64,000 bases of DNA from Marinifilum flexuosum (GTDB lineage Bacteria > Bacteroidota > Bacteroidia > Bacteroidales > Marinifilaceae): assembly GCF_003610555.1 (NCBI RefSeq), contig NZ_RAPQ01000008.1:1914490-1978489 (forward strand), in the 5' to 3' direction. A program made the translations under genes and the position numbers. The first letter of the stretch is position 1. Each line of letters starts with the position of its first letter. Below are positions 9,389 through 63,052 of this stretch, piece by piece. Below the pieces are notes generated by a model. The model saw only the letters and a program-made list of their open reading frames with translations. It was not told the DNA's origin and searched no databases.

Positions 9389-9578
9389 CCGTAATGTTCT
9401 GTTTTTCAGATGTGTTCTTTTTGTTTTTTCCTGATAAAAAATCTCGTACAAATGTACTTAATAATCATCAGTATTTTTAGTTTGATCAAGTTTAAATAAA
9501 GTAACAAGTATCAAGACGGGAGGTACAACTTTTAACTTTAAGTACTTAAGTCACTCATAAGTATTTAAGTACTGCAAA
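9389..9578 (-). other. 190-bp batC-batD spacer with small inverted repeats
   Basis: The only sizeable gap inside the operon. It contains AAGTACTTAAGT and AAGTATTTAAGTACT near 9540-9573, forming overlapping small palindromes just after the batC stop. It could hold an mRNA processing or attenuation site. No ORF is visible. Confidence 0.35.
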
Positions 9579-10364
9579 CTACCAATCCTTTTTAATTTTG
9601 GTTTTTTTCGCTTTCATAGCTTTGGCTTTGGCCTTTTGAACTTTTTCCTGAACTTTCTTCTCGTCGTTCTCCAAAGCTTCTAGCAAGCGTTTAGCATCTT
9701 CTTTCGAGATTTTTGGTTGTTGCTGCTGTTGCTTATCCTTATCTCCTTTGTCTTGCTTGTCCTTATTTTGTTGATCTTTATTTTTTTCCTGATCTTTTTT
9801 GTCTTGATCTTTCTTATCCTGGTCCTTCTTATCTTGATCCTTCTTGTCCTGGTTTTTTTTATCCTGATCTTTCTGATCCTTATTTTGATCTTTGTTCTGA
9901 TCTTGTTTTTTCTGCTCCTCTTCCTCTTCCTGTTTCTTTTTCATTTGGCGAGCATATTCCAGGTTGTATTTGGTTTCCTGGGAATTTGGATTGTAACGCA
10001 AGGACTGCTTGTAAGCTTCTATACTTTCATCAATCTTTTTACTTTCCAAAAGTGTGTTTCCCATATTGTGAAACAAGTGACCAAGCTTTTCAGGATTCTT
10101 TTCGTTAACAGCCAAAGTTTGGAACTGTTTTAAAGCTTCCTCGTACTTTTTTTGCTTGTACAATGCATCACCCAGGTTGAATCCTGCTTCGTAAGAATTG
10201 ATTTTCTTATCCAAAGCTTTACGGTATTCCACTTCCGAATTCTCAAATTTTTCTCCCTCGAAAAGTTCATTCCCCGAGCGAATAAACTTTCTTTCCTTTT
10301 GGGCTACTGCCTCCATGCTTAGAAGACAAATCAAGCTAATGAATATCAATAATATTTTTTTCAT
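9579..10364 (-). CDS. batC: BatC: TPR protein with Lys/Gln/Asp repeat tract
   Basis: Signal peptide (about 1-21, ending AVAQ), then three TPR-like repeats (about 30-140: NELFEGEKFENSEVEYRKAL, AGFNLGDALYKQKKYEEAL, MGNTLLESKKIDESIEAYK). From about 143 to 215 the protein is almost wholly K, D, Q, E and N with repeating DQKNK/KDQ units, followed by a short basic end. This fits BatC, a periplasmic TPR protein. The DNA of the charged tract is itself repetitive, so copy number may vary between strains. Twenty base pairs separate it from batB. Confidence 0.85.
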   Translation of the reverse strand: MKKILLIFISLICLLSMEAVAQKERKFIRSGNELFEGEKFENSEVEYRKALDKKINSYEAGFNLGDALYKQKKYEEALKQFQTLAVNEKNPEKLGHLFHNMGNTLLESKKIDESIEAYKQSLRYNPNSQETKYNLEYARQMKKKQEEEEEQKKQDQNKDQNKDQKDQDKKNQDKKDQDKKDQDKKDQDKKDQEKNKDQQNKDKQDKGDKDKQQQQQPKISKEDAKRLLEALENDEKKVQEKVQKAKAKAMKAKKTKIKKDW

Positions 10365-10384
10365 AAGTGAGGATTTGTATCGTT

Positions 10385-11422
10385 CTACTTCGATGGATTA
10401 AATAAATTAATGTCTTTTAAATGACGGTTCTTACGTTCCAAAACAAGGAATTCAATGAATAAAAGCAACAAACCGATTGCCAGGAATATCTGAAACTTTT
10501 CATCGTAAGCAGTATATACTCTGGCTTCCAATTCTGTTTTATCCATTTTATTGATTTCTTTAAATAGAACGTTTAAACCCGTGGTTGTGTTGTTGGCAAT
10601 TACTGCTTTTCCACCTCCGGCGGTTGCAATTTCCTCCACCATTTGCTGATCCAGTTTAGAAATCACAATGTTGCCTTCGTCATCTCGCCTGAAATCACTG
10701 GAACCAGCTCTTACAGGAATAGGTGCCCCTTCGGGCGATCCCATGGCAATGGTATGAACTGCAATTCCCATTTCCTTAGCCATATTAGCTGCCTGTACTG
10801 CATCATCTTCGTGGTTTTCACCATCGGTAATTACAATAATGGCTTTGCTGGCTTCGCTATCTGGTGTAAAACTTCTTGTTGCCAATTCGATGGCAGAACC
10901 AATGGCGGTTCCCTGTATAGGAACAATATCGGTACTAATGGAAGACAAGAACAGTTTTGCCGAAGCATAATCCGTTGTAATTGGCAATTGAGTATAGGCT
11001 TCGCCTGCAAAAACAATCAGTCCAACTTTATCGTTGTTTAGCTTGTCAACCATTTTCGAAATGGCACGTTTGGCACGTTCCAAACGGTTTGGCTGAATGT
11101 CTTGTGCCATCATCGAGTTGGAAACATCCAATGCAATGATTACCTCAACACCTTTTCTTTTTATCTTCTGAAGCTTTGATCCAAATTGTGGACCTGCTAC
11201 ACCAATAATGATAAAGCTTAAAGCCAAAATCAAAATTGAAAATTTATATACAGGTCTGGTGAATGAAGCATAAGGCATCAAATGAGAGATGATGTTCATC
11301 TCACCAAATTTTTGCAAAGCTTTTTTCTTAATTACATGGCTTACCCAGTACAACACTACTAATATTGGTATGAGTACGAATAAGTATAGAAATTCAGGAT
11401 GATCGAAACGAAACTGATCCAT
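10385..11422 (-). CDS. batB: BatB: vWA domain membrane protein
   Basis: Two N-terminal membrane segments (about 12-30 and 60-77), a von Willebrand A domain (about 92-300) and a C-terminal membrane helix (about 310-330). The metal-ion-dependent adhesion site is intact: Asp99, Ser101 and Ser103 (DVSNS), with a later ITDGEN segment. BatA and BatB are paralogues that are thought to form a membrane complex regulated by the MoxR ATPase. It lies 35 bp after batA. Confidence 0.9.
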   Translation of the reverse strand: MDQFRFDHPEFLYLFVLIPILVVLYWVSHVIKKKALQKFGEMNIISHLMPYASFTRPVYKFSILILALSFIIIGVAGPQFGSKLQKIKRKGVEVIIALDVSNSMMAQDIQPNRLERAKRAISKMVDKLNNDKVGLIVFAGEAYTQLPITTDYASAKLFLSSISTDIVPIQGTAIGSAIELATRSFTPDSEASKAIIVITDGENHEDDAVQAANMAKEMGIAVHTIAMGSPEGAPIPVRAGSSDFRRDDEGNIVISKLDQQMVEEIATAGGGKAVIANNTTTGLNVLFKEINKMDKTELEARVYTAYDEKFQIFLAIGLLLLFIEFLVLERKNRHLKDINLFNPSK

Positions 11423-11457
11423 TTATCAATGATTTTCGGTTTATCAAATAATTACAA

Positions 11458-12450
11458 TTAAGGAATATTCCTTAAAATTGAATTGCGTAATGCAATCTCC
11501 AATAGCAAAAACAATGCGGCAAGCATCGCAAAGATTAAGAACTCTTCACTTTTGGTGCTGTATTGTTTTACTTCAATTTTACTTTTCTCAAGCTTGTCAA
11601 TTTCAGCATAAATTGCCTTTAGCTTGTTGTTGTCTGTTGCACGGAAATATTGTCCGCCAGTCATTTCTGCAATCTCTTTCAGTACAGATTCATCAAACTT
11701 AACCGGCAAGTTTTTCATGCTGATACCAAAAGCCGTTTGTACAGGGTAGGGAGCCGTTCCTCTGGTTCCAATCCCAATGGTGTACACACGAATGCCAAAT
11801 GATTTTGCCAGCTCTGCAGCGGTTAAAGGTGCAATTTCACCTCGGTTGTTATCACCATCGGTAAGTAGAATTACCACCCTCGATTTTGCTTCACTGTCTT
11901 TCAATCGGTTCACGGCATTTGCCAAACCCAAACCAATGGCGGTACCATCTTCAATCATACCACTGTGGATATCCTTGAACAGATTAATCAATACAGCATG
12001 GTCGGTAGTTAGCGGACATTGCGTAAAACTTTCCCCACTAAAGATTACCAAACCAATTTTGTCCTCAGGGCGACCTGTAATAAATTGTGTTGCTACATCT
12101 TTGGCAGCTTCCAAACGGTCTGGCTCAAAATCGCGAGCCAACATACTACTCGAGATATCCAAAGACATTACAATGTCGATCCCTTCGGTAATGGTATCCT
12201 GAAATTTGTTGCTTGACTGCGGACGAGCCAGTGCTATAACGATAAATGCTATTGCCAAAACACGAAACAGAATTAGCGCATGGCGCAAATAGTATTTGTA
12301 GGTTTTGGGAGCAGCATTAAAACTTTTTACAGTTGAAACCTGAATACTTGCATGTGCATTTTTGTCCTTCAGAATGTACCAAACGATAATTGGTGCCAGA
12401 AGCAACAAAAGGTAGAAATATTCCGGATTTGCAAATTCTATAGAACTCAT
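11458..12450 (-). CDS. batA: BatA: vWA domain membrane protein
   Basis: Paralogue of BatB with the same plan: membrane helices near 10-27 and 57-75, vWA domain from about 91, MIDAS residues Asp98, Ser100 and Ser102 (DISSS), LLTDGDNNRG, and a C-terminal helix near 308-325. MoxR-linked vWA proteins act as chaperone-like partners in maturation of envelope or enzyme complexes; the client here is unknown. It follows the unknown membrane gene by 18 bp. Confidence 0.9.
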   Translation of the reverse strand: MSSIEFANPEYFYLLLLLAPIIVWYILKDKNAHASIQVSTVKSFNAAPKTYKYYLRHALILFRVLAIAFIVIALARPQSSNKFQDTITEGIDIVMSLDISSSMLARDFEPDRLEAAKDVATQFITGRPEDKIGLVIFSGESFTQCPLTTDHAVLINLFKDIHSGMIEDGTAIGLGLANAVNRLKDSEAKSRVVILLTDGDNNRGEIAPLTAAELAKSFGIRVYTIGIGTRGTAPYPVQTAFGISMKNLPVKFDESVLKEIAEMTGGQYFRATDNNKLKAIYAEIDKLEKSKIEVKQYSTKSEEFLIFAMLAALFLLLEIALRNSILRNIP

Positions 12451-12468
12451 AGTCTATTGTTTCAATGT

Positions 12469-13491
12469 TTACTTTTTATCCTCAGATTTTTCTTCTTGTT
12501 TCGATTCTTCCTCTTTTTTCTCTTCTTCCTTTTCTACCAAAATGGTTGATTCAATAATTTGGTAGGCATATTTCAAACTTTGTTCGTTTTCGTTAGGAAG
12601 AGGTTGAAATTTCGCGAATTTGGCCAAATCGGCACGTTCAAGAACCTCTCTAAGATTCACATGCCATTTGTTGTTCACTTCAACCGAGTTTACTGCCTCA
12701 AGAATTTCATCGGTAGTAGACTCTTGAGTAGACATGTTGTATCTTTCATCAAGGTAAGTTCTAATGGTATCCGTTAAATCTGAGTGGAACTGTTTTACTT
12801 TTCCTCCTTGCCATAATTTCTGCTGTTTGATCTCATCCAATTTCTTTAGCGCAATAACATGAGCTGGTTCAATTGGTTTCGATACAGCAAATAAAGGCTC
12901 ATCTTTCTGACGGAATCTGAAATACCAGATTAGGAATACAATCAATGCAAGTACAAGTAATCCTCCCAATAGCCATGGAGCAACTTCTACAAATGATACT
13001 GGTGTTTGAATCGGCATTACGATGTCGAAATTTCCTTTTGTAGTATCAATTTGCATGGTTTTAACGCCCAATAGCAAAGTATCGGTACGTAAAATCTGAT
13101 TCACGCTGCCATAAACCTGAAATTCGAAAGGTTTTAACTTGTATACACCACCATCGAATGAGGTAATGGTGTAATTCTTGTCCACCTTAATTACACCATT
13201 TTCAAGTGCAGTTGTATCCTGAGGAGTTTGCTCAATAATTTCAACTCCATTAACAATGCTATCGGAAAAAACAGGGAAGCCAATTTTAAGCTCCTTTGGT
13301 TGCTCCACCGATAATTGCAAATTAATCTGATCTCCAATTACAATTACATTGGTATCCAGTTTTACTCCGTAATTGATTCCTCCATCGTTTTGAGCAAACG
13401 AATTGTGTGAGAATAATACTGAAGCAAGTACCAACGTAAAAGCAAAAGCCTTTGTCAGGAAGTTAATATGTTTTTTTATTTGATTTGCCAT
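12469..13491 (-). CDS. Membrane protein of unknown function in the Bat operon
   Basis: Not recognised beyond its place: it stands between the DUF58 gene and batA, where many Bacteroidota have a poorly described protein. There is a signal peptide (about 12-33, ending SFAQ), a beta-rich extracytoplasmic region (about 35-170) resembling one Ig-like BatD module, a membrane helix (about 172-192, WLLGGLLVLALIVFLIWYF), and a cytoplasmic alpha-helical part with conserved-looking YLDERYNMSTQESTTDEIL, ending in a Glu/Lys-rich tail. The helical segment resembles the cytoplasmic end of BatD and DUF4381-type proteins, so it may be a small BatD-like partner. That is inference from layout. Confidence 0.78.
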   Translation of the reverse strand: MANQIKKHINFLTKAFAFTLVLASVLFSHNSFAQNDGGINYGVKLDTNVIVIGDQINLQLSVEQPKELKIGFPVFSDSIVNGVEIIEQTPQDTTALENGVIKVDKNYTITSFDGGVYKLKPFEFQVYGSVNQILRTDTLLLGVKTMQIDTTKGNFDIVMPIQTPVSFVEVAPWLLGGLLVLALIVFLIWYFRFRQKDEPLFAVSKPIEPAHVIALKKLDEIKQQKLWQGGKVKQFHSDLTDTIRTYLDERYNMSTQESTTDEILEAVNSVEVNNKWHVNLREVLERADLAKFAKFQPLPNENEQSLKYAYQIIESTILVEKEEEKKEEESKQEEKSEDKK

Positions 13492-13508
13492 AGTTCTCAG
13501 TTTCCTGA

Positions 13509-14381
13509 TTAATGTCCTCTGCGTTGGAATAGGTTGATCAGTGATCTTACGTAATCCTGATCGGTTCTGATATTAGCCACATCAACTCCCGAACGCTTAA
13601 AAACTTCGGTGGTATTTTCTTCTTGCTTTCGCCACCACCCGGCATATTTTTCACGAACTTTCTTGTTCGATGTATCTACCCAGGAATATTCTCCTGTTTC
13701 GGCATCTTTAATTTTAACCAAGCCAATGGAAGGAAGTTCCGTTTCGCGTTGATCGTAAATTTTAAGTGCCACCACATCATGTTTTTTGTTCGCAATGGTC
13801 AAAGCATTTTCATAATCCTTATCATCGATAAAATCTGAAATCACGAAAGTGGTACAATGCTTTTTAATGGCATTGGTAAGGTATCGCAATGCATTGCTGA
13901 TATCGGTACTTCGGTGTTCAGGTTTAAAATCGATTAACTCACGAATAATTCTCAGAATATGAGTTTTTCCCTTTTTAGGAGGGATAAATTTCTCGATGGT
14001 ATCCGAAAAGAAAATTACACCAATTTTATCGTTGTTCTGTATTGCAGAGAATGCCAAAACAGCGGCAATTTCGGTAATCTGGTTCTTTTTCAGCTTCGAC
14101 ATGGTACCAAACTCACGGCTACCACTCACATCAATCATCAACATTACGGTAAGCTCACGTTCTTCTTCGAACAGCTTAACGTATGGATTGTTGTAGCGCG
14201 CAGTAACATTCCAGTCGATGTTTCGGATATCGTCACCATACTGATATTCGCGAACTTCGGCGAAAGTCATTCCTCGACCTTTAAACGCAGAGTGATACTC
14301 ACCCGCAAAAATATTGCGGGAAAGACCTCTGGTTTTGATCTCGATTTGCCTTACGCGTTTTAATAATTCACTAGTCTCCAT
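13509..14381 (-). CDS. DUF58 domain protein
   Basis: Standard 290-aa DUF58 protein of MoxR operons. The family signature GDDIRNIDWNVTAR (49-62) is intact and is followed by a vWA-like region with DVSGS (84-88). No membrane helix is seen, so it is cytoplasmic. DUF58 proteins accompany MoxR and vWA proteins widely; their action is not established. It starts 56 bp after moxR and ends 17 bp before the next gene, supporting one transcript. Confidence 0.9.
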   Translation of the reverse strand: METSELLKRVRQIEIKTRGLSRNIFAGEYHSAFKGRGMTFAEVREYQYGDDIRNIDWNVTARYNNPYVKLFEEERELTVMLMIDVSGSREFGTMSKLKKNQITEIAAVLAFSAIQNNDKIGVIFFSDTIEKFIPPKKGKTHILRIIRELIDFKPEHRSTDISNALRYLTNAIKKHCTTFVISDFIDDKDYENALTIANKKHDVVALKIYDQRETELPSIGLVKIKDAETGEYSWVDTSNKKVREKYAGWWRKQEENTTEVFKRSGVDVANIRTDQDYVRSLINLFQRRGH

Positions 14382-45875: not shown

Positions 45876-46290
<415 letters not shown>

Positions 46291-46291
46291 T

Positions 46292-46470
46292 TCCTTTCTC
46301 CTTTCTCCCTTCCACTTTCTCCTTTCTCCTTTCTCCTTTCCTCCTTTCTCCTTTCTCCTTTCTCCTTTTTTCCTTTCTCCTTTTTTCCTTTCTCCTTTTT
46401 TCCTTTCTCCTTTTTTCCTTTTTTCCTTTCTCCTTTTTTCCTTTTTTCCTTTCTCCTTTCCTCCTTTCTC
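46292..46470. repeat. CTCCTTT/TTTTTCC pyrimidine array
   Basis: About 180 bp of almost pure C/T on the plus strand, made of CTCCTTT heptamers with stretches of CTCCTTTTTTCCTTT. It ends exactly before the -7 box of rnpB. Minus-strand ORFs across it (KGERRKEKRK-type) are artefacts of composition. Confidence 0.9.
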
Positions 46471-46472
46471 CT

Positions 46473-46480
46473 TATCTTTG
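46473..46480 (+). promoter_or_regulatory. -7 box of rnpB
   Basis: TATCTTTG matches TAnnTTTG exactly and is 6 bp before the RNA start. The place for the -33 element falls inside the pyrimidine array, where no TTG exists. Confidence 0.6.
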
Positions 46481-46483
46481 CTG

Positions 46484-46838
46484 CTGGCAAACCGTTCTAT
46501 CGCTGTTTCGCAAGAAGGAGAGGAAAGTCCGGGCAACGCAGAGTAACATACTTCTTAACTGGAAGAAGGCCGAAAGGCTTTAGTAGTAGAGCAGAAAATA
46601 ACCGCTCCAATTTATTGGTGTAAGGGTGAAAAGGTGAGGTAAGAGCTCACCGGTACCTGTGGTGACATGGGTAGCCGTGTACCTTATGTGTTGCAAGATC
46701 AAGTATACCGTCAGTTGTAGGCTTACTCGGCCGATGTCGGGGGGTAGATTGCTAGAGACATTTGGTAACAAATGTTCAAGATAAATGATAGAAACTCTTT
46801 TTTTAAGAGGACAGGACCCGGCTTATAGGTTTGCCAAT
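46484..46838 (+). ncRNA. rnpB: RNase P RNA component, bacterial class A
   Basis: Catalytic RNA that removes the 5' leaders of pre-tRNAs. The 5' and 3' ends pair as P1 (GGCAAACC at 46486-46493 with GGTTTGCC at 46828-46835). The conserved blocks are present: GAGGAAAGTCCGGGC near 46518-46532 and ACAGGACCCGGCTTATA near 46811-46827. The interior GGTGAAAAGGTGAGGTAAGAG segment fits the class A specificity region. Exact ends are estimated from the P1 pairing. A terminator follows at 46874-46903. Confidence 0.97.
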
Positions 46839-46873
46839 TTTAATTAGTAATGAACAATTGTTAATTAATAATG

Positions 46874-46903: not shown

Positions 46904-47310
<407 letters not shown>

Positions 47311-53239: not shown

Positions 53240-53527
53240 ATGAAGAGAGCATACATATATATCATGTCAAATAAAAATAGAACGACATTGTATATTGGAG
53301 TAAGCTCTGATTTGAATAGAAGAATGGCTGAACATTCGGAAGGGATAGGAGCAAAGTTTACAAAAAGATACAATTTGACTGACTTGCTTTATTATGAGGA
53401 GTTTGATGATATAAGTGAAGCTATAGCCAGAGAAAAACAATTGAAAAATTGGAAGAGAGAATGGAAGTTAAATTTAATTAAGAGTTTGAATCCAGGATTA
53501 AAAGATTTAAAAATGGATTTTAGATAA
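53240..53527 (+). CDS. GIY-YIG nuclease family protein (COG2827-like)
   Basis: Ninety-five residues with the GIY-YIG core in variant form: YIYIMSNKNRTTLYIGVSSDLNRRMAEHS, with Tyr and Ile of the second strand, Arg in DLNRR and the Glu region near AREKQLKNW. This is a single-domain member of the YhbQ type, often multicopy in Bacteroidota. It lies between long stretches of the GTCATCCTGA-type palindromic repeat and interrupts the polysaccharide locus, suggesting insertion. Whether it is active is unknown. Confidence 0.85.
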   Translation: MKRAYIYIMSNKNRTTLYIGVSSDLNRRMAEHSEGIGAKFTKRYNLTDLLYYEEFDDISEAIAREKQLKNWKREWKLNLIKSLNPGLKDLKMDFR

Positions 53528-55021: not shown

Positions 55022-55246
55022 ATGGAAATTAAGGAGTTTATTGAAAAATTTGCGGAGGCAATTGAAGTTGAAGAAGTAGAAATTTTGAATGCGGAAACGG
55101 AATTTAGAGAATTAGATGAATGGAGTTCATTGTCTATTATGATGTTAATTGCTATGATGGATGAAGAATATGAGAAGCAAGTAGGAGATAAGGAAATTAA
55201 AGCTTGTCAAACGATTCAGGATTTATATGGCATAACTTTATCATAG
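55022..55246 (+). CDS. Acyl carrier protein
   Basis: A 74-aa acidic helical protein with the phosphopantetheine site in the form WSSLS (Ser36 by alignment to DSL of standard ACPs) and following helix MMLIAMMDEEYEKQVG. It differs strongly from primary AcpP (no DSLDTVEL), so is a dedicated carrier. It starts 31 bp after the Wzz gene and leads a packed cassette: the ketosynthase gene follows 6 bp after its stop. It would hold acyl groups made by the ketosynthase and reductase. Confidence 0.88.
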   Translation: MEIKEFIEKFAEAIEVEEVEILNAETEFRELDEWSSLSIMMLIAMMDEEYEKQVGDKEIKACQTIQDLYGITLS

Positions 55247-55252
55247 TTTTAT

Positions 55253-56311
55253 ATGGCGGTCTTAGAGTTTGAAAATATTGGAATCTCAGCTATGTCTGGT
55301 GCCGTTCCTAAAACTGTTATTAATAACTACGAGTATACAAAGCATTTTCCAGTTGAACAAGTAAAAGAAGTAGTGGATAAAATTGGAATTTATGAGCGTA
55401 GATTTGTTGATTCTAGTACATGTGCTTCGGATTTGTGCTTTGCTGCTGCGGAAAAGTTAATAGAGGATAATCAGATTGATAAAAATGAAATTGACTTGAT
55501 TGTTTTCATTTCACAGACACCTGATTATCGAATGCCTGCTACCTCATTGTTGTTGCAAGATCGTTTGGGTTTATCAAATAAAACTATTGCTTTTGATATT
55601 AATCTTGGTTGTTCTGCATTTATTTATGGACTATCTGTGGTTTATGGGTTCATGCAAAATAAAAATATTCGTAAAGCATTAATATTAGATGGGGAAACTA
55701 GATCTAAAGTTTATTCTCCTAAGGATCGACAAAGTGCCTTTATTTTTGGAGATGCTGGAGTGGTTGCGTTGATAGAGAGAAACGAAAAATTTGGAAAATC
55801 ATACTTTTCGTTAAACTCTGACGGATCAAGATCTGACCTAATAATGATAAAAGGAGGTGGATATCGTTGTCCCAGTTCATTAGAAACTTTGGAAGAAAAG
55901 GTTGTGGATGAATATGGTAATATTCGTAGTGATGAACATGGATATATGAAAGGTGGAGATGTTTTTAACTTTGTAATAAGAGAAGTGCCGAAGGATTTAA
56001 AATTCTTGATGAAATATGCAGAAATGGATAAAGATGAGTTTGATTATTATGTTTTTCATCAGGCAAATAATTTTATCAATTCATATATTGCAAAGAAATT
56101 AAAACTGGATTCTACTAAAATACCAGCGACTATTCATAAATATGGTAATACTTCTTCTGTATCTGTACCATTAACTATTATAAGCGAGTTGAAAGAACAA
56201 TTTACCACCCCTAAAAAAGTTCTTTTGAGTGCTTTCGGTGTTGGCATGACTTGGGCTACAGGTGTTATAAATTTGGATAATTGTGCAATTAGTGAAATAG
56301 TAGAAATTTAA
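55253..56311 (+). CDS. 3-oxoacyl-ACP synthase III-like ketosynthase
   Basis: FabH-type thiolase fold, 352 aa. The Cys-His-Asn triad is intact: Cys120 in NLGCSAFIYGL, His269 in VFHQANNF and Asn299 in KYGNTSSVSVP. It should condense an acyl starter, often acetyl-CoA, with malonyl on a carrier. It differs from housekeeping FabH at the N-terminus (GISAMSGAVPKTVI) and belongs to the kind found in polysaccharide loci. It lies between the ACP gene (6 bp) and the SDR gene (3 bp), so they are one transcript and probably one pathway. Confidence 0.9.
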   Translation: MAVLEFENIGISAMSGAVPKTVINNYEYTKHFPVEQVKEVVDKIGIYERRFVDSSTCASDLCFAAAEKLIEDNQIDKNEIDLIVFISQTPDYRMPATSLLLQDRLGLSNKTIAFDINLGCSAFIYGLSVVYGFMQNKNIRKALILDGETRSKVYSPKDRQSAFIFGDAGVVALIERNEKFGKSYFSLNSDGSRSDLIMIKGGGYRCPSSLETLEEKVVDEYGNIRSDEHGYMKGGDVFNFVIREVPKDLKFLMKYAEMDKDEFDYYVFHQANNFINSYIAKKLKLDSTKIPATIHKYGNTSSVSVPLTIISELKEQFTTPKKVLLSAFGVGMTWATGVINLDNCAISEIVEI

Positions 56312-56314
56312 TTT

Positions 56315-57079
56315 ATGAATTTTAATCCCTTTAGTCTTAAGGATAAAGTTATTGTTATAACAGGTGCTTCATCAGGAATAGGGCAACAATGTGCTATTGA
56401 TTGTAGTAAGATGGGGGCAAAAGTTGCATTACTTGGAAGAGATTGTGATAGGTTAAAAATGACGATTTCTCAAATGAAGAATCGAGAGAAACATTTGATG
56501 TTCTCAGTTGATTTGGCGGATGTAAAGTGCCTTAAAGATGTTATATCAACTGTAGTGTCCTCTCTTGGTAAGGTTAATGGTTTTATTCATGCTGCAGGAA
56601 TAGAAAAAACATTGCCATTAAAGCTTACTAAACAACAAGATATGAAGGAAGTTTTCGATGTTAATGTTATCAGTGCAGTAGAATTGCTGAAAATATTGAC
56701 TAGTAGGAAATTTAAAGGTGATGGACAAAAACATGTCCTAATTGCATCTATAACAGGAGTAATTGGTAGAGCTGGATTGACGGCTTATTCTGCATCAAAA
56801 GGAGCATTGATTTCATTAACAAGAAGTCTTGCTTTAGAATTAGCTCCTAGGAGTATAAATGTAAACTGTGTATCTCCTGGAACTATTCTAACTCCTATGA
56901 TGGAAAGTTTTCTTTCAAAGCTGTCAGATGATGAAAGGATTAAAAGAAGTCAAGGCTTTCATCTAGGACTAGGTAAAACAACAGATGTTTCTAATGCATG
57001 TATTTTTTTATTAAGTGATGCTGCTAATTGGATGACTGGTCAAAATATTATTATTGATGGTGGATATACTTCAGGGTGA
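56315..57079 (+). CDS. FabG-like SDR family oxidoreductase
   Basis: Classical short-chain dehydrogenase, 254 aa. Cofactor loop TGASSGIG (17-24), Asn117, Ser145, Tyr158 and Lys162 (YSASK) are all present, so it should be active, with NADP(H) the likely cofactor (family knowledge). By position it probably reduces the 3-oxoacyl group made by the upstream ketosynthase to 3-hydroxyacyl. Its 3' end overlaps the next gene by 23 bp, implying translational coupling. Confidence 0.9.
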   Translation: MNFNPFSLKDKVIVITGASSGIGQQCAIDCSKMGAKVALLGRDCDRLKMTISQMKNREKHLMFSVDLADVKCLKDVISTVVSSLGKVNGFIHAAGIEKTLPLKLTKQQDMKEVFDVNVISAVELLKILTSRKFKGDGQKHVLIASITGVIGRAGLTAYSASKGALISLTRSLALELAPRSINVNCVSPGTILTPMMESFLSKLSDDERIKRSQGFHLGLGKTTDVSNACIFLLSDAANWMTGQNIIIDGGYTSG

Positions 57080-57686
57080 TAATTATAAAATTAAAAGGAT
57101 TATTAATAAACCAGTATCATCTAATTGTTATATAGTATGTAGCAAAAGTGGAGGAGTTATAATTGATCCAGGATCTCCAGATATTACGGATATTGAATTG
57201 TTTCTTAGTAAAAATTGCATGGTGCCTAGATTTATAATTCTTACGCATGAACATTGTGATCATTCATCGGGAGTTAATCAGCTAAGAGAAATATATCCTG
57301 AAATAAAGTTGATTTGTTCTAGTGGTTGTAATAAAGCAATGGCAGATAGTGCCTATAATCTTTCGGAATATTTTGAAGGGTATGAGACATATGCTGTGCA
57401 GTGTGCTGAATATGAAATAAGATCTAATAAATCAATGAGCTTGATAGATTTGGATTTTAAGTTTATAATTTCCCTGGGGCATAGTGTTGGTGGGATGACT
57501 GTGTTTTTTGATAATAATGTATTTACAGGTGATTTAATTATTCCTGAAACAAAGGTAATTACAACATTAAAAGGAGGTGATAAATCATTAGCTGAAGAAA
57601 GTAGGAAAAAGGTTTTAAAAGAATGTAGTGATAATTATATTATCCTTCCTGGGCATGGAGGTATTATTAAGAAGATTGAACTTTAA
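57057..57686 (+). CDS. MBL-fold metallohydrolase (glyoxalase II/thioesterase-like)
   Basis: Metallo-beta-lactamase fold protein of about 209 aa. The two-metal motif is complete: THEHCDHSSG (HxHxDH), a following GHSVGG histidine, TGDLI aspartate and GHGG histidine. Members in this size class hydrolyse thioesters such as S-lactoylglutathione. In this cassette it could release or edit acyl groups on the carrier protein; this is inference. I take ATG 57057, overlapping the SDR gene by 23 bp; a TTG 3 bp earlier is also possible. Confidence 0.85.
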   Translation: MVDILQGDNYKIKRIINKPVSSNCYIVCSKSGGVIIDPGSPDITDIELFLSKNCMVPRFIILTHEHCDHSSGVNQLREIYPEIKLICSSGCNKAMADSAYNLSEYFEGYETYAVQCAEYEIRSNKSMSLIDLDFKFIISLGHSVGGMTVFFDNNVFTGDLIIPETKVITTLKGGDKSLAEESRKKVLKECSDNYIILPGHGGIIKKIEL

Positions 57687-57707
57687 GAAATAAACTCAAT
57701 TACTATC

Positions 57708-59516
57708 ATGATAGATGTTTTAGAAAAGAAGGATTGTACTGGATGTAGTGTTTGTGTTGATGTTTGCCCTACGAAAGCAATATCACTAATTAGCGATATA
57801 GAAGGTTTTTGGTATCCTGAGATAGATTCAAATAAATGTACTAAATGTAATTTATGCGAAAAAAAATGTCCTGTAATTAATCTTCATAAATCCAAAATAA
57901 CTACACTAGAGGAGCCTAAATGTTTTGTTGCTATACACAAAAGTATAGAAACACGTTTTAATAGTACTTCAGGGGGGGTGTTTAGCGCCTTAGCAGAGAA
58001 TACTTACAAGGAAAATGGCTATGTTGGAGGAGCTATTTATGGAGAGAATTTTGAAGTTAAGCATTACATTTCTGATAATGTTGATGATTTAGTAAAATTA
58101 AGACAAAGCAAATATTCTCAGAGTAAAATAGATGGATTCTACAAAAATGTTAAGCTGCTATTGAATGAAGATAGGAAAGTGTTGGTTTGTGGAACCCCAT
58201 GTCAAATGGCTGGATTAAGGGGGTTTTTAGGTAAGGATTATGAAAATCTATTAATTGTTGATTTTATCTGCAAAAGTATAACATCTCCTAAATTCTATAG
58301 TAAATATCTTGAGCACTGGGAGGAAAAAGTTGGAAGTAAGCTGATTTCATTTAAGTTCAAAGATAAAGAGTTGGGATGGAGGGAGTTAGTGAAGCGCTTT
58401 GACTTTAAGAATGGAAAATCTTATTATAGCTCAATGGCAGATGGTGATTTATATAGTTTGGCATACCATGGAAATGTTGTAAGCCGTCCGTCTTGTTATA
58501 ATTGCAAGTATAAAGGATATCCTAGAAATGCGGATATAACCATTGCGGACTTTTGGGGAGTTGAGAACTATTTCCCTGAATTGGATGATAATGCAGGTAC
58601 TTCAGCTATTATTGTGAATACAGAAAAAGGACTCGGATATCTGAAAAAGCTTAATTCAAGATTAATTTTGAAAGATGCTTTTTTAAAGGATATTCAAAAA
58701 TATAACCCGGCATTAATTGAGAGTCAAGCGTATCCCAAGGTGGATCGTAAATTCTTTTTTAATTTGATGGAGGAGGAAGGAATTGAGAAAGCTGTTAATA
58801 TATGCACTCCTCAAGTTAGGAGAAAGTTAACATTTGTAGAGAAGTTGAAAAAAATCGCTCGAATTGTTTTATCAGTTAAAAACCACACTCAATGCAGAAT
58901 TAGACCAATTTGGAAATTTATCTTCTATAATTTTTTAAAAAGAAATGTTAAAACAAACTGGATGAATAATGGTTTTATTTATCCGACTCCTTATGCCATA
59001 ATTGAAATAAAAAAAGGTGCAAAAATTGAACTAAATGGTCCTTTAATAGTAGGAAGTAAAAAAATTAGAAAATCTCGTGCTGAGACTGTTTTATCTATTG
59101 CTAACAAGGGGAATTTATTTATTGATCAACGTTTTGAGTTAGGGTATGGAAGTATGGTTGAGGTGTTTGAAAATGCTACTTTAGAAATTGGTAACTCAGG
59201 AACTAATTATGGTTGTACAATTATATGTGGCAAAAAAATAGAACTGAGAGGTCGGGTATCTTTAGGACGCGAGGTTTCTATCAGAGATACTAATGCACAT
59301 ATAATTGCGATCGATGGCTATAAGGTTTTACGTCCTGTTATAATTGAGAATCATACTTGGTTATGCAGTGGCAGTATTATATGTCCAGGGGTAAAAGTTA
59401 AAGAGGGTGCTGTTGTTGGAGCTTCTTCTTATGTAGTTCAGAATGTTCCAGCGCATAGTTTAGTAAGTGGAAATCCAGCAAAAGTAGTGATGAGAGATAT
59501 TCTTTGGAAGTTATGA
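57708..59516 (+). CDS. Fe-S/FrhB-type oxidoreductase fused to a left-handed beta-helix acyltransferase
   Basis: A 602-aa fusion. Residues 1-60 hold two 4Fe-4S sites (C10, C13, C16, C20 and C44, C47, C50, C54), residues about 80-370 are the FrhB/F420 hydrogenase beta-subunit region seen in polysaccharide loci (TSGGVFSALAE, GTPCQMAGLRG, CKYKGYPRNADITIADFWG), and residues about 405-602 are a hexapeptide-repeat beta-helix ending with the CysE/WcaF-like VVGASSYVVQNVPAHSLVSGNPAKVV. The second part suggests O-acetyl or other acyl transfer to sugar. Separate FrhB-like and acyltransferase genes are common; this fusion is less usual. It overlaps the next gene by 4 bp. Confidence 0.86.
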   Translation: MIDVLEKKDCTGCSVCVDVCPTKAISLISDIEGFWYPEIDSNKCTKCNLCEKKCPVINLHKSKITTLEEPKCFVAIHKSIETRFNSTSGGVFSALAENTYKENGYVGGAIYGENFEVKHYISDNVDDLVKLRQSKYSQSKIDGFYKNVKLLLNEDRKVLVCGTPCQMAGLRGFLGKDYENLLIVDFICKSITSPKFYSKYLEHWEEKVGSKLISFKFKDKELGWRELVKRFDFKNGKSYYSSMADGDLYSLAYHGNVVSRPSCYNCKYKGYPRNADITIADFWGVENYFPELDDNAGTSAIIVNTEKGLGYLKKLNSRLILKDAFLKDIQKYNPALIESQAYPKVDRKFFFNLMEEEGIEKAVNICTPQVRRKLTFVEKLKKIARIVLSVKNHTQCRIRPIWKFIFYNFLKRNVKTNWMNNGFIYPTPYAIIEIKKGAKIELNGPLIVGSKKIRKSRAETVLSIANKGNLFIDQRFELGYGSMVEVFENATLEIGNSGTNYGCTIICGKKIELRGRVSLGREVSIRDTNAHIIAIDGYKVLRPVIIENHTWLCSGSIICPGVKVKEGAVVGASSYVVQNVPAHSLVSGNPAKVVMRDILWKL

Positions 59517-60430
59517 TGGAAAAAATTAAGCTAAATAATGGTTATGATATTCCACTTATAGGTATTGGACCAGGAAGTGTTATGAGAGGTTACTCAGTTC
59601 AAATATTTGGAAAGTCAAAAATTGGACAATTATGTAACAAGATATCAAATAGATTATTATACATCTATAAGGCAAAGAAGTATATAAAGTCGGTTGTTAG
59701 TGCCATTAATACAGGCTATAGATTAATAGATTATTCAGCTGCTTACGGAAGTGAAAAGTTAATTGCTAAGGCAATACAGAAAAGTGGTGTTGAAAGAGAA
59801 GATTTGTTTGTTACATCAAGGATTACTAATCACCAGCAATTGAACAAAGATGTTAGAACTTCTTTCTTTGAGTCATTAAAAAAACTAGAATTAGATTATA
59901 TTGACTTTTATATGTTTCATTGGCCTGTAACAGGTTATTATGAGGATACTTGGCTTGAAATGGTCGAATTATATAAGGAAGGTTATATTAGAGCATTGGG
60001 TGTAGCAAATTGTCACCAACATCATATAGATAATTTGATTAAAAAGAGTGAAATTCTTCCTACAATTAATCAGGTAGAAGTACATCCTCTGTTTACTCAA
60101 AAACCATTGATAGAATATTGTTCGAAAAAGGGAATTATAGTTGAAGGATATACTGCAATAGCACGTTTTGATGATCGTCTAATAAGACTCCCTGCTTTAA
60201 AGCAAATAGCACAAAAGTATAATAAAAGTATTGTTCAGATTGTTATTAGGTGGCACCTACAAAACAAAGTAGTTCCAATAATACGTTCATCAAATAAAAG
60301 GCGTCAGTTAGAAAATATATCGGTATTCGATTTTCAATTAACCAAAGAGGAAATGCTTAAAATAGATAGCATTAATATTAATTCACGTTTACGTTATGAT
60401 CCTGATAACTGCGATTTTTCTGTTCTTTAA
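59513..60430 (+). CDS. Aldo/keto reductase-like protein with substituted catalytic Lys
   Basis: TIM-barrel AKR fold, 305 aa. Of the catalytic tetrad, Asp73 (GYRLIDYS), Tyr78 (AAYGSE) and His136 (YMFHWP) are present, but the Lys is Arg103 (VTSRIT; codon AGG). There is also a long insertion, about 30 residues, near 24-57 between the first strand and the conserved AIxxGYR helix. Such changes may alter or end NADPH-dependent reduction. It sits in the sugar-modification cassette; ATG at 59513 overlaps the upstream stop by 4 bp and the stop overlaps the next start by 1 bp. Confidence 0.85.
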   Translation: MMEKIKLNNGYDIPLIGIGPGSVMRGYSVQIFGKSKIGQLCNKISNRLLYIYKAKKYIKSVVSAINTGYRLIDYSAAYGSEKLIAKAIQKSGVEREDLFVTSRITNHQQLNKDVRTSFFESLKKLELDYIDFYMFHWPVTGYYEDTWLEMVELYKEGYIRALGVANCHQHHIDNLIKKSEILPTINQVEVHPLFTQKPLIEYCSKKGIIVEGYTAIARFDDRLIRLPALKQIAQKYNKSIVQIVIRWHLQNKVVPIIRSSNKRRQLENISVFDFQLTKEEMLKIDSININSRLRYDPDNCDFSVL

Positions 60431-61968
60431 TGAGAGAAACTACTAATAATAAAACAATAGCAAAGAACACATTGTTCTTGTATATCCGTATGATGTTTAC
60501 GTTGTTTGTGTCTTTGTATACATCTCGTGTCATATTAGATATTTTAGGAGTAAACGATTTTGGTATTTATCAATCTGTTGGAGGAATCGTTGGATTTTTA
60601 TCTTTTGTTAGTAGTGCCTTAAGTACAGGGTCATCTAGATTTATAACCTTTGAACTAGGCACAGGTAATAAGGAAAAGCTTCGTCGTACATTCTCAACAA
60701 TATTAACAGTTCATATTATTTTGGCATTATTAATTGCTATAATTGCTGAGATTTCAGGCCCGTGGTTTTTATATAATAAATTGATAATTAGCCCTGATAG
60801 AATGGATGCTGCAGTTTTTGTCTTTCATGTATCCATTTTTACGGCTGTGGTGTCTTTAACACAAGTGCCGTATAATGCTAGTATAATTGCTCACGAAAAA
60901 ATGTCCATATATGCCTATGTTAGTATTTTTGAAGTATCTGCAAAATTGTTAATCGTATATCTATTACCACTTGGTGGAATAGATAAGTTAATATTTTATG
61001 CAGTTTTGCTATGCGCAGTTCAAATCGGAGTAATGTTGTTTTATCGAATATATTGTATTAGTAATTTTAATGAAACCAGGTACAAATTTATTTTCGATAA
61101 AACCATATTTAAAGAAATTGCAGGTTTTTCTGGGTGGAGTTTATTTGCTAATGCATCAATTGCTTTAAATAGTCAGGGAGTGCTATTACTTTTGAATATG
61201 TTTTTTTCACCTACTGTTGTTGCAGCGCGAGCTATTTCTATTCAAGTAAACATGGCTGCAACACAGTTTGTAAATAATTTTAGGACAGCTGTTAACCCTC
61301 AGATTGTAAAGCAATATGCCTCTGGGAATTATGAGGAGTCAAAAGAACTTTTATTATCGTCTACTAAATATTCTTATTATTTAATGTTGATATTGAGTTT
61401 TCCCATCTGCTTGTTAGCCAAACCCCTGTTGGAGTTGTGGTTAGTTGAGGTGCCAGATTATACTGTAATTTTTCTTCAAATTGTTATTGTTCAGAGTTTA
61501 TTTCAAGTGTTCGACTATTCATTTTATATGGCACTATATGCTAAAGGAAGGTTAAGGGAAAATGCATTGATCTCACCCACTATTAGCTTTCTAATATTTC
61601 CTGTCACCTATTTCTTATTTCAGTCAGGATATTCTCCTGTTACATTATCTTGGGCAAGTCTTATTGCTTATGCAATAATAGGTGTTGTTGTTAAACCGAT
61701 AATAATAATAAAAGTAGTGGACTATAAAAAGAAGGATATTTTAAAAGTTTTTACCTCTTGTTGGTGGGTAAGTCTTTGTGCACTCCCCATTCCTATCATT
61801 TGTAATTTTATTTTTGATAAAGGAACTATGATTGGTTTTATTTCACTGGGTATGATTACTATAATTTCAGTGGCTTTAAGTGTCTTTTTTATAGGTTTGG
61901 ATCAAAAAATAAGAAAGAAAATTATTGATGTGATAAGTAATAAGATAAGTTTAAAATTTAATATTTGA
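60430..61968 (+). CDS. Wzx-type polysaccharide flippase (MATE/MVF superfamily)
   Basis: A 512-aa membrane protein with about 12 to 14 hydrophobic helices and the oligosaccharide-flippase N-terminus (NTLFLYIRMMFTLFVSLYTSRVIL, LGVNDFGIYQSVGGIVGFLSF). It moves undecaprenyl-linked repeat units across the inner membrane. ATG overlaps the preceding TAA by one base. No wzy polymerase gene is in the window; it would be expected downstream. Confidence 0.9.
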   Translation: MRETTNNKTIAKNTLFLYIRMMFTLFVSLYTSRVILDILGVNDFGIYQSVGGIVGFLSFVSSALSTGSSRFITFELGTGNKEKLRRTFSTILTVHIILALLIAIIAEISGPWFLYNKLIISPDRMDAAVFVFHVSIFTAVVSLTQVPYNASIIAHEKMSIYAYVSIFEVSAKLLIVYLLPLGGIDKLIFYAVLLCAVQIGVMLFYRIYCISNFNETRYKFIFDKTIFKEIAGFSGWSLFANASIALNSQGVLLLLNMFFSPTVVAARAISIQVNMAATQFVNNFRTAVNPQIVKQYASGNYEESKELLLSSTKYSYYLMLILSFPICLLAKPLLELWLVEVPDYTVIFLQIVIVQSLFQVFDYSFYMALYAKGRLRENALISPTISFLIFPVTYFLFQSGYSPVTLSWASLIAYAIIGVVVKPIIIIKVVDYKKKDILKVFTSCWWVSLCALPIPIICNFIFDKGTMIGFISLGMITIISVALSVFFIGLDQKIRKKIIDVISNKISLKFNI

Positions 61969-61978
61969 AGCAGTTAAA

Positions 61979-63052
61979 ATGAAAATTGGAATATTAACAC
62001 ATCCATTAGGACATAACTACGGTGGGATACTTCAAAACTACGCACTTCAAGTAGTGTTAAAAAAAATGGGACATGATCCTACAACCATAAGGATTGGTAA
62101 GTATACCATTCTGAATTGGTTAGTGTCTATGATTAAAATATTCATCCTGAAATTAATAGGTAGGGAATTACAATATCCATTGGCACCTTGGGTTAAATTA
62201 AAAAAAGAGAAGCCATTAACTGACTTTGTTGATAGGAATGTTAAATGTTCAACAAAGAAATTATGGTTTGAAGAAAAGGAAGTGTTAAAATATAATTTTG
62301 ATGCACTGCTTGTAGGTAGCGATCAAGTATGGCGTCCATGCTATAATCTTCATATTGAAGATCTATTTCTTAATTTTGCGCGAAATATAGAGATAAGAAA
62401 AATTGCTTATGCTGCTTCGTTTGGTACTGATGAGTGGGAGTTCTCTGTGGACCAAACAAAACTTTGTAAGGATTTAATTAAACAATTTGATGCAGTTTCG
62501 GTTAGGGAGGATAGTGGCGTTAAATTATGCAATTCATTTCTTAATCAAAAGGCTGAAGTCGTGCTTGATCCAACTTTATTGTTGTCAAAAAGTGAATATG
62601 AGAAAATATGTAAAAATGTGGAGAAGTATAGTTCTCCTACTCTGGCAGTTTACATTCTTGATATGACTAATGAAAAAATGAACTTTGTTGAGAGTTTCGC
62701 AAAGAAAAAGAACCTTAGGGTAAAATTAATGAATGTAGTTGAAATAACACATAAGTATGATACTATTGAAACTTGGTTGAGTACTTTCCGTGATGCAGAA
62801 TTTGTAATTACCGATTCATTTCATGGAACAATTTTTTCCATTATTTTCAATAAGGACTTTTATTCTATTTGCAATTTAGAACGAGGTGCATCAAGGTTTG
62901 AATCATTGTTATCATTATTTGGACTAAAAAGCAGATTGTTGTATGGCCTGGACTTAAATAATGATTGTAGCATTAATTGGATTGAAATAAATGAAAAATT
63001 AGAAGAATTGCGAGATCAAAGCAACTTATTTTTAAAAAACAGCCTTTCCTGA
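61979..63052 (+). CDS. Polysaccharide pyruvyl transferase family protein
   Basis: Cytoplasmic transferase of 357 aa of the CsaB/WcaK kind. The family motifs are GILTHPLGHNYGGILQNYALQ at the N-terminus, LLVGSDQVWRP near 110, SVREDSG and ITDSFHGTIFS near 275. It transfers pyruvate from PEP to form ketals on sugars in the family's characterised members, although several EPS-locus members are uncharacterised. Often found beside FrhB-like Fe-S proteins, as here. Confidence 0.88.
   Translation: MKIGILTHPLGHNYGGILQNYALQVVLKKMGHDPTTIRIGKYTILNWLVSMIKIFILKLIGRELQYPLAPWVKLKKEKPLTDFVDRNVKCSTKKLWFEEKEVLKYNFDALLVGSDQVWRPCYNLHIEDLFLNFARNIEIRKIAYAASFGTDEWEFSVDQTKLCKDLIKQFDAVSVREDSGVKLCNSFLNQKAEVVLDPTLLLSKSEYEKICKNVEKYSSPTLAVYILDMTNEKMNFVESFAKKKNLRVKLMNVVEITHKYDTIETWLSTFRDAEFVITDSFHGTIFSIIFNKDFYSICNLERGASRFESLLSLFGLKSRLLYGLDLNNDCSINWIEINEKLEELRDQSNLFLKNSLS

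Follow-up and report, generated by a model that had tools for sequence, protein, structure and literature searches.

A putative acyl carrier protein module with a GloB-like hydrolase abuts part of a different gene set in a polysaccharide locus of Marinifilum flexuosum

Do six tightly packed genes in a polysaccharide locus of Marinifilum flexuosum form a single acyl pathway? This was proposed in a sequence-only reading of 64,000 nucleotides of contig NZ_RAPQ01000008.1 (positions 1,914,490 to 1,978,489; hereafter the window, by whose numbering positions are given), according to which six open reading frames (ORFs) at 55022–60430 build a short acyl group on a dedicated acyl carrier protein (ACP) and move it to sugar. 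All six ORFs were present on the + strand and tightly packed, and the short gaps and overlaps were as described: the intergenic distances from gene 1 to gene 6 were 6, 3, −23, 21 and −1 bases, computed with ATG starts at 57057 for gene 4 and 59516 for gene 6 (59513 is an alternative ATG for the latter). The six ORFs are not one unit. A four-gene module adjoins the leading half of another conserved set, and the two parts are considered in turn below.

The first four genes (55022–57686) appear from their sequences to be a recurring acyl-ACP module. They encode a dedicated ACP of 74 aa with its phosphopantetheine serine, S36, in EWSSLS (55022–55246); a non-housekeeping ketoacyl-ACP synthase III (KSIII; 55253–56311); a short-chain dehydrogenase/reductase (SDR; 56315–57079) resembling 3-oxoacyl-ACP reductases; and a GloB-like metallo-beta-lactamase-fold hydrolase (MBL; 57057–57686), which we propose as an editing thioesterase. 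Their Pfam families are PP-binding, ACP_syn_III N and C, adh_short and Lactamase_B. The catalytic motifs listed earlier were all found: the KSIII triad C120/H269/N299, the SDR glycine motif TGASSGIG at residue 17 with YSASK at 158, and the MBL ligands are intact, and only the aldo-keto reductase-like protein (AKR) encoded by gene 6 departs, with Arg in place of the catalytic Lys. Bacteroides faecichinchillae (L056), the nearest named relative in the KSIII tree, has the same order, ACP-KSIII-SDR-MBL. Chance packing of the acyl genes was ruled out, as gene order is conserved in relatives.

The ACP scored 27.9 bits against PP-binding (PF00550; cut-off 20.8). Its serine was invariant in all 72 members of its cluster, and the genome holds one phosphopantetheinyl transferase (PPTase) match (G000:C1:837726); at the level of sequence, the earlier reading is therefore not refuted by a carrier unfit for phosphopantetheinylation. 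A second, stronger PP-binding match lies elsewhere in the genome (G000:C6:107299). The SDR, adjoining the KSIII, is by family a 3-oxoacyl-ACP reductase-like protein.

The KSIII was also predicted not to be FabH, and this prediction stood. Against the FabH model TIGR00747 it scored 210.8 bits, missing the cut-off of 292.1, and it narrowly missed that of the broader subfamily model PRK09352 (240.7 versus 249 bits). A quick maximum-likelihood tree of 165 rows set all 15 FabH sequences on one side of a branch of length 1.84 with a Shimodaira–Hasegawa-like support (SH-aLRT) of 100, and the window KSIII fell outside them, within a 12-row group of island KSIIIs (SH-aLRT 99) whose other members are L056, L057, L032, L033, L058, L059, L061, L062, L063, L065 and L068. 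A stretch of 33 residues in the window KSIII is 30–33 residues long in 98 of 100 island rows and 23 in every FabH. Housekeeping FabH shares the fold family and triad with the window KSIII but differs in its separate, long-branch group, its shorter stretch and the lack of an ACP or SDR adjoining any of 15 control loci; housekeeping FabH was rejected as an identity by the tree and these neighbourhood controls. In the midpoint-rooted drawing, 30 second-copy island KSIIIs fell on the far side of FabH, so that the island KSIIIs taken together may have more than one origin. KSIII matches from plasmid and phage searches were all below 60% identity.

We next asked how often these genes travel together. 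Of the 56 family genomes surveyed, 38 had a KSIII match at E ≤ 1e-40; among the 54 KSIII places listed, 26 were read as non-housekeeping (25 at E ≤ 1.3e-56 and one at 9.4e-46) and the other 28, at 30–32% identity, as FabH. Neighbourhoods were then compared in 20 regions from 15 family genomes, in the best 80 of at least 588 confirmed matches from named genomes, and in 15 FabH controls (13 loci of other genomes at 30–32% identity, L018 at E 1.4e-43, and L149, which is the copy in the window genome itself). In counts made with hidden Markov models built from the same loci, the KSIII had both an ACP and an SDR on its own strand and no more than 3 kb away in 17/20 family and 65/80 named-genome loci and in 0/15 controls, which span about 1.5 kb on each side only. 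An ACP lay within 300 bp of the KSIII in 13/20, 62/80 and 0/15, respectively, and an SDR within 3 kb in 18/20 family and 69/80 named-genome loci.

Other families recurred within 10 kb on the same strand, each named from a single representative and drawn from Louvain clusters that may merge distinct subfamilies: PglD (17/20 family, 41/80 named), DegT (14/20, 31/80), PglC (15/20, 19/80), AMP ligase (12/20, 13/80), a FabD-like transacylase (6/20, 3/80) and MBL (14/20, 8/80). Within 4 kb, one KSIII was present in 18/20 family and 41/80 named-genome loci, and two in 2/20 and 39/80. PglD occurred in the drawn stretch for six of the 11 other members of the window's KSIII group (L033, L056, L058, L062, L065 and L068), and the window is therefore not unique in having no neighbouring PglD. 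Two annotated Parabacteroides plasmid records list an acetyltransferase, one or two carrier proteins, an AMP-binding protein, a KSIII and an SDR. In annotated Azospirillum loci the KSIII lies near sugar or glycosyltransferase genes, with no annotated ACP in the stretch, for which the gene table is incomplete. A Xanthomonas locus (L110) has an ACP-KSIII-SDR-SDR-PglD-type set about 9 kb or less from flagellin and FliD genes. The locus L057 carries an ACP-KSIII-SDR triad at 9772–11861 with a KSIII 70% identical to that of the window; its cluster labels recognise no sugar gene in 21 kb, and the two scanned upstream neighbours are CTP synthase and YidC.

Two described systems resemble the acyl-building half. 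For the O-polysaccharide R-group of Flavobacterium psychrophilum, the main-text passages of the source name wfpD (ACP), wfpC and wfpE (synthases), wfpF (reductase) and wfpG (a PglD homologue), assigned to a 3,5-dihydroxyhexanoyl group on Qui2NAc4N; the group was seen by nuclear magnetic resonance, and the route, proposed to be type II fatty-acid-like, was predicted (PMC6519341). The genes for the acyl group, alongside wzy, influence lipopolysaccharide antigenicity (PMC6519341). In the viosamine island of Pseudomonas syringae, the relevant passages assign vioS, vioR, acp and vioB to the 3-hydroxybutyryl of modified viosamine; a vioR mutant lacked modified viosamine, and vioS and acp were assigned by homology (PMC3927599). 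Like the window, the wfp system places a dedicated ACP, a 3-ketoacyl-ACP synthase and a 3-ketoacyl-ACP reductase in a Bacteroidota polysaccharide locus that also has UDP-L-FucNAc genes, but it has two synthases where the window has one, and a PglD homologue with pglE/pglF where the window genome has no PglD_N match; no MBL or FrhB–LbH fusion is named in those passages, and the main text, whose gene table is in a supplement, nowhere contains 'metallo' (PMC6519341). The vio system, as described there, matches the window in having a single KSIII, a single 3-oxoacyl-ACP reductase and a single ACP, which there are assigned to a 3-hydroxybutyryl group on sugar; it differs in serving a flagellin glycan through VioA/VioB chemistry on a 4-amino sugar, and no MBL is among its seven named genes (PMC3927599). 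A single synthase goes with C4 in one of these two cases and a pair of synthases with C6 in the other, which suggests that KSIII number may set chain length.

Judged by gene content, the acyl-building half is a member of this known kind of ACP-KSIII-reductase glycan N-acylation system. It has the ACP with its phosphopantetheine serine, the non-housekeeping KSIII with an intact triad and the adjacent SDR reductase. No PglD_N match was found in the whole genome at E ≤ 0.001, and neither a DegT aminotransferase nor a PglD-type protein was found among the scanned locus proteins; because this acyltransferase and aminotransferase were searched for and not found, we did not file the whole block as a full wfp/vio-type member. 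Two strong DegT matches lie more than 300 kb from the block, and six more in the genome are weak and partial. The sequence-only reading had called the system unlike any described. This does not hold for its ACP/KSIII/reductase/acyltransferase core, given the passages cited above (PMC6519341, PMC3927599). The exact six-gene set was not found described in the open-licence PMC literature, and with the terms searched no paper was found there on the MBL or on the FrhB–LbH fusion in such loci. What appears new relative to described systems is the MBL subfamily of KSIII islands and a genome with no PglD_N protein.

The MBL carries HEHCDH and a later His, Asp and His, invariant in 18/18 aligned rows (the window's own included). 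Its score against the GloB equivalog, 39.5 bits, misses the cut-off of 200.8 by far. An AlphaFold2 model (predicted local distance difference test, pLDDT, 94.5) matched BLEG-1 and Staphylococcus aureus GloB with template modelling (TM) scores of 0.85–0.90, and its profile also matched PqsE. GloB and PqsE families both hydrolyse thioesters. The window protein is thus like the GloB, YcbL and BLEG-1 hydrolases in fold and metal ligands but differs in its low GloB score, its own conserved motifs and its KSIII-island context.

This context was consistent. A family search with the single window sequence as query (E ≤ 1e-12), which is not affected by profile bias, gave 18 MBL matches, the window's own included, in 13/56 genomes; each of the 18 had a non-housekeeping KSIII place, out of the 26, no more than 6 kb away, as expected if, as first proposed, the MBL is a real part of acyl islands, and 20 of these 26 places had an MBL within 10 kb. 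The family set includes some short matches and some interrupted by a stop (G036; G007, G024). Across 295 genomes of the order, the profile A3 gave 143 matches, nine at ≥129 bits and 134 at ≤117 bits, a split that is partly by construction since A3 was built from island MBLs. The seven high-scoring matches outside the family were all beside a KSIII and an SDR, and six of them also beside an ACP; one high-scoring locus (L194) had no detected ACP or PglD. Eight of the 134 low-scoring matches were fetched as controls, and 0/8 lay beside a KSIII, ACP or SDR, with a PglC-type sugar transferase nearby in 4/8. A stray housekeeping GloB was ruled out as an identity for the MBL by the score split and by the KSIII and SDR beside 7/7 high matches. 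The MBL also occurs in KSIII islands with an FkbH-like gene (L034, L035, L070, L073 and L074), a label that derives from the FkbH_N match of an L147 relative. Every MBL island seen has a KSIII, all islands compared having been found through a KSIII or holding one, and the link may therefore be to KSIII rather than to carriers in general. At the thresholds used, this GloB-like subfamily was seen only in KSIII islands. That association, together with the fold and the PqsE match, makes an editing thioesterase our best guess for its role.

The last two ORFs look like members of a separate conserved set (57708–63052). Gene 5 encodes a fusion of an Fe-S/FrhB_FdhB-like part (about aa 1–400; 57708–58907) and a left-handed beta-helix (LbH) acyltransferase part (about aa 401–602; 58908–59516), with Fer4, FrhB_FdhB_N/C and a weak Hexapep match (23.8 bits, missing the cut-off of 27). 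Gene 6 encodes the AKR (Aldo_ket_red; 59513–60430) and is followed by a Wzx-like flippase (MatE; 60430–61968), with homologues in L147 and L148, and a polysaccharide pyruvyl transferase (61979–63052), all on the + strand. Scoring the three or four best candidates per genome, we found one further full-length fusion among 295 order genomes (in G319, at 43% identity) and, at E ≤ 1e-100, none in any other genome among 395 of the phylum. In G319 (L147) an FkbH_N/glyoxalase-like/MaoC/SDR/ACP cassette (8981–14379) lies directly upstream of the fusion, and a flippase, an SDR, an AKR, an ORF without Pfam match and a pyruvyl transferase lie downstream. In G186 (L148) an FrhB without LbH adjoins an AKR, with a pyruvyl transferase, a flippase and two separate LbH proteins nearby. 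FrhB and pyruvyl transferase each occurred in the same 3 of 121 scanned loci (L094, L147 and L148), two of which had been fetched for their FrhB. AKR relatives among these 121 loci were in L147, L148 and, at 35% identity (E 2.9e-51), L190, at the edge of a KSIII/MBL island. The expected co-occurrence held for the ACP/KSIII/SDR core and was not supported for FrhB and AKR.

The Arg of the window AKR stands where the L147 relative has Lys, at what we take to be a catalytic position. The same change is found in the L148 relative (8288–9205, 54–55% identical), suggesting a trait of a subfamily rather than decay. A broken AKR is accordingly unsupported, since the Arg is common to this relative.

What might the module do? 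We consider it probable, from gene content, motifs, KSIII grouping, co-occurrence and the absence of a PglD_N match in the genome, that it is a dedicated one-round module making 3-hydroxybutyryl-ACP for sugar acylation, with the MBL as editing thioesterase. The genome's PPTase would make the ACP holo, and the ACP would then carry malonyl. The KSIII would condense malonyl-ACP with a short primer, acetyl-CoA being the likeliest, and reduction of the product by the SDR would give a 3-hydroxyacyl-ACP, most likely 3-hydroxybutyryl; this capacity, claimed earlier for a dedicated ACP, KSIII and SDR in a polysaccharide locus, is supported by the motifs and families. The hydroxyacyl group would be placed on a sugar of a surface polysaccharide. 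This transfer is probably the work of a PglD/VioB-type enzyme in many relatives, with an aminotransferase-made amino sugar as acceptor. Because this pair is missing here, the best candidate for transfer in the window is the fusion's LbH domain, and the acceptor could be an amine freed by a downstream PIG-L deacetylase, or a hydroxyl. The MBL would free the ACP of acyl groups that are incorrect or stalled. Substrate, chain length, stereochemistry, transfer step, acceptor and editing role are all deduced in this scheme.

Several observations weigh against this scheme. The editing role of the MBL is argued from association and fold, and an MBL is not shown in the parts of the described systems cited (PMC6519341, PMC3927599). 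In the KSIII, the Trp of 15/15 FabH rows is Glu, with other residues in at least 97/100 island rows, and the Phe of 15/15 FabH rows is Met, Phe being present in 1/100 island KSIIIs; we take these positions to be the CoA-stacking Trp and pocket Phe of Escherichia coli FabH, and the primer and carrier may therefore differ from the acetyl-CoA case. No ACP or KSIII was detected in L148 despite its FrhB/AKR/flippase/pyruvyl transferase set. The nearest solved relatives of the LbH domain by sequence are mostly CoA-dependent O-acetyltransferases (galactoside, maltose, polysialic acid), and its model is poor (pLDDT 68), so that the domain may simply use acetyl-CoA. The poor model matched O- and N-acetyltransferases alike (TM about 0.3) and was not used. 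The domain missed every cut-off among the 25 families shown, most of its best solved relatives being O-acetyltransferases of the WcaF/WbbJ/maltose type; the traits sought for this type were an LbH end with a conserved GNPAK region and a central-loop His. Only the hexapeptide end matched TIGR03570, and a Pfam scan of the fusion found no PglD N-terminal domain.

It is accordingly quite conceivable, at somewhat less than even chances, that the same acyl-ACP module operates while the LbH domain belongs to the FrhB/pyruvyl transferase set as an ordinary O-acetyltransferase using acetyl-CoA, and that some unrecognised enzyme, or one encoded elsewhere, moves the hydroxyacyl group. The likeness to O-acetyltransferases, the shared occurrence of FrhB and pyruvyl transferase in the same 3/121 loci, and L148, where FrhB, AKR, LbH proteins and pyruvyl transferase occur without a detected ACP or KSIII, favour this and argue against the LbH domain taking acyl from a carrier. 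On the other side, the genome has no PglD_N match, and the LbH domain is the sole acyltransferase domain recognised among the scanned locus proteins, a formyltransferase apart. The best argument for the LbH domain taking acyl from a carrier is that the fusion set follows two unrelated ACP cassettes, in the window and, directly, in L147. A primer other than acetyl-CoA, with the KSIII taking another short or branched acyl, possibly from another carrier, and yielding a different 3-hydroxyacyl product, seems rather unlikely: the Met and Glu at the FabH Phe and Trp positions and the AMP-ligase genes near 12/20 family and 13/80 named KSIIIs point that way, but no AMP ligase was found among the scanned locus proteins, and the one-KSIII P. 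syringae system, in the passages describing it, carries 3-hydroxybutyryl (PMC3927599).

That the MBL is a release step, freeing a hydroxy acid used or secreted otherwise, is improbable. Its GloB-like fold and PqsE match would suit such a role, but 20 of 22 MBL-bearing relatives also hold a PglD-type gene in the drawn stretch, and a PglD-type enzyme would need the thioester. We give still less weight to the original claim of a single six-gene pathway, in which FrhB and AKR would modify either the acyl chain or its acceptor. The tight packing, the L147 arrangement, in which the fusion follows an ACP cassette and the AKR is the third gene after the fusion, and the AKR relative at the edge of L190 speak for it; against it, no AKR match at E ≤ 1e-55 was found in the other 55 family genomes, 100 KSIII loci at E ≤ 1e-10 hold no AKR relative and one FrhB (L094), and FrhB and AKR recur in L148 without detected acyl-ACP genes. 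A broader speculation, unlikely as we see it though less so than these last two, is that Bacteroidales glycan islands share a GloB-like thioesterase proofreading glycan-specific ACPs, in KSIII islands whose other genes vary (SDRs, FkbH-like genes or AMP ligases beside the KSIII); here the FrhB–LbH fusion would replace the PglD/aminotransferase pair and take acyl from the carrier, FrhB reducing the acyl chain or sugar before transfer.

If the dedicated one-round module is real, the KSIII count, carrier and transferase would be readable from DNA, and the acyl tag of many uncharacterised Bacteroidota glycans could be predicted. The MBL subfamily would serve to flag such islands, and its proposed function could be tested. 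The fusion also raises the question of what part an FrhB-type redox protein plays in glycan assembly, a role that to our knowledge is not settled.

The block is surrounded by polysaccharide genes. Upstream are genes for a Polysacc_synt_2 protein, a polysaccharide export protein and a Wzz-like protein; between the last two lies a 95-aa ORF with a GIY-YIG catalytic domain (53240–53527; PF01541, 73 bits). Downstream, locus L136 of the same genome contains glycosyltransferases and a weak match to Wzy. It also has an FnlA-like dehydratase (553 bits against a cut-off of 730), which together with a WecB-type 2-epimerase and an RmlD-like reductase probably forms a UDP-L-FucNAc route. It further holds another NAD-epimerase, the PIG-L deacetylase, a PglC-like sugar transferase, a formyltransferase, a WbuC cupin and a nucleotidyltransferase. 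The PIG-L deacetylase, PglC-like transferase and formyltransferase lie together (L136 8888–11073), and the same trio is found beside the KSIII module in L033. A scan gave 46 promoter-like sites, against 37.1 ± 6.5 in shuffles, and four terminator-like sites, against 3.4 ± 1.7.

Just upstream of the polysaccharide genes lies a bacterial RNase P RNA of class A (46484–46841; RF00010, 242 bits). Perfect 7-base tandem repeats were found at 45876–45935 (AAGTATA, 8.6 copies) and 46964–47020 (TATAAAG, 8.1 copies), with a TCCTTTC-type array at 46292–46477. After the polysaccharide locus, L136 13158–19749 contains many tandem arrays, with units of 7, 8, 16, 24, 64, 106 and 170 bases among others.

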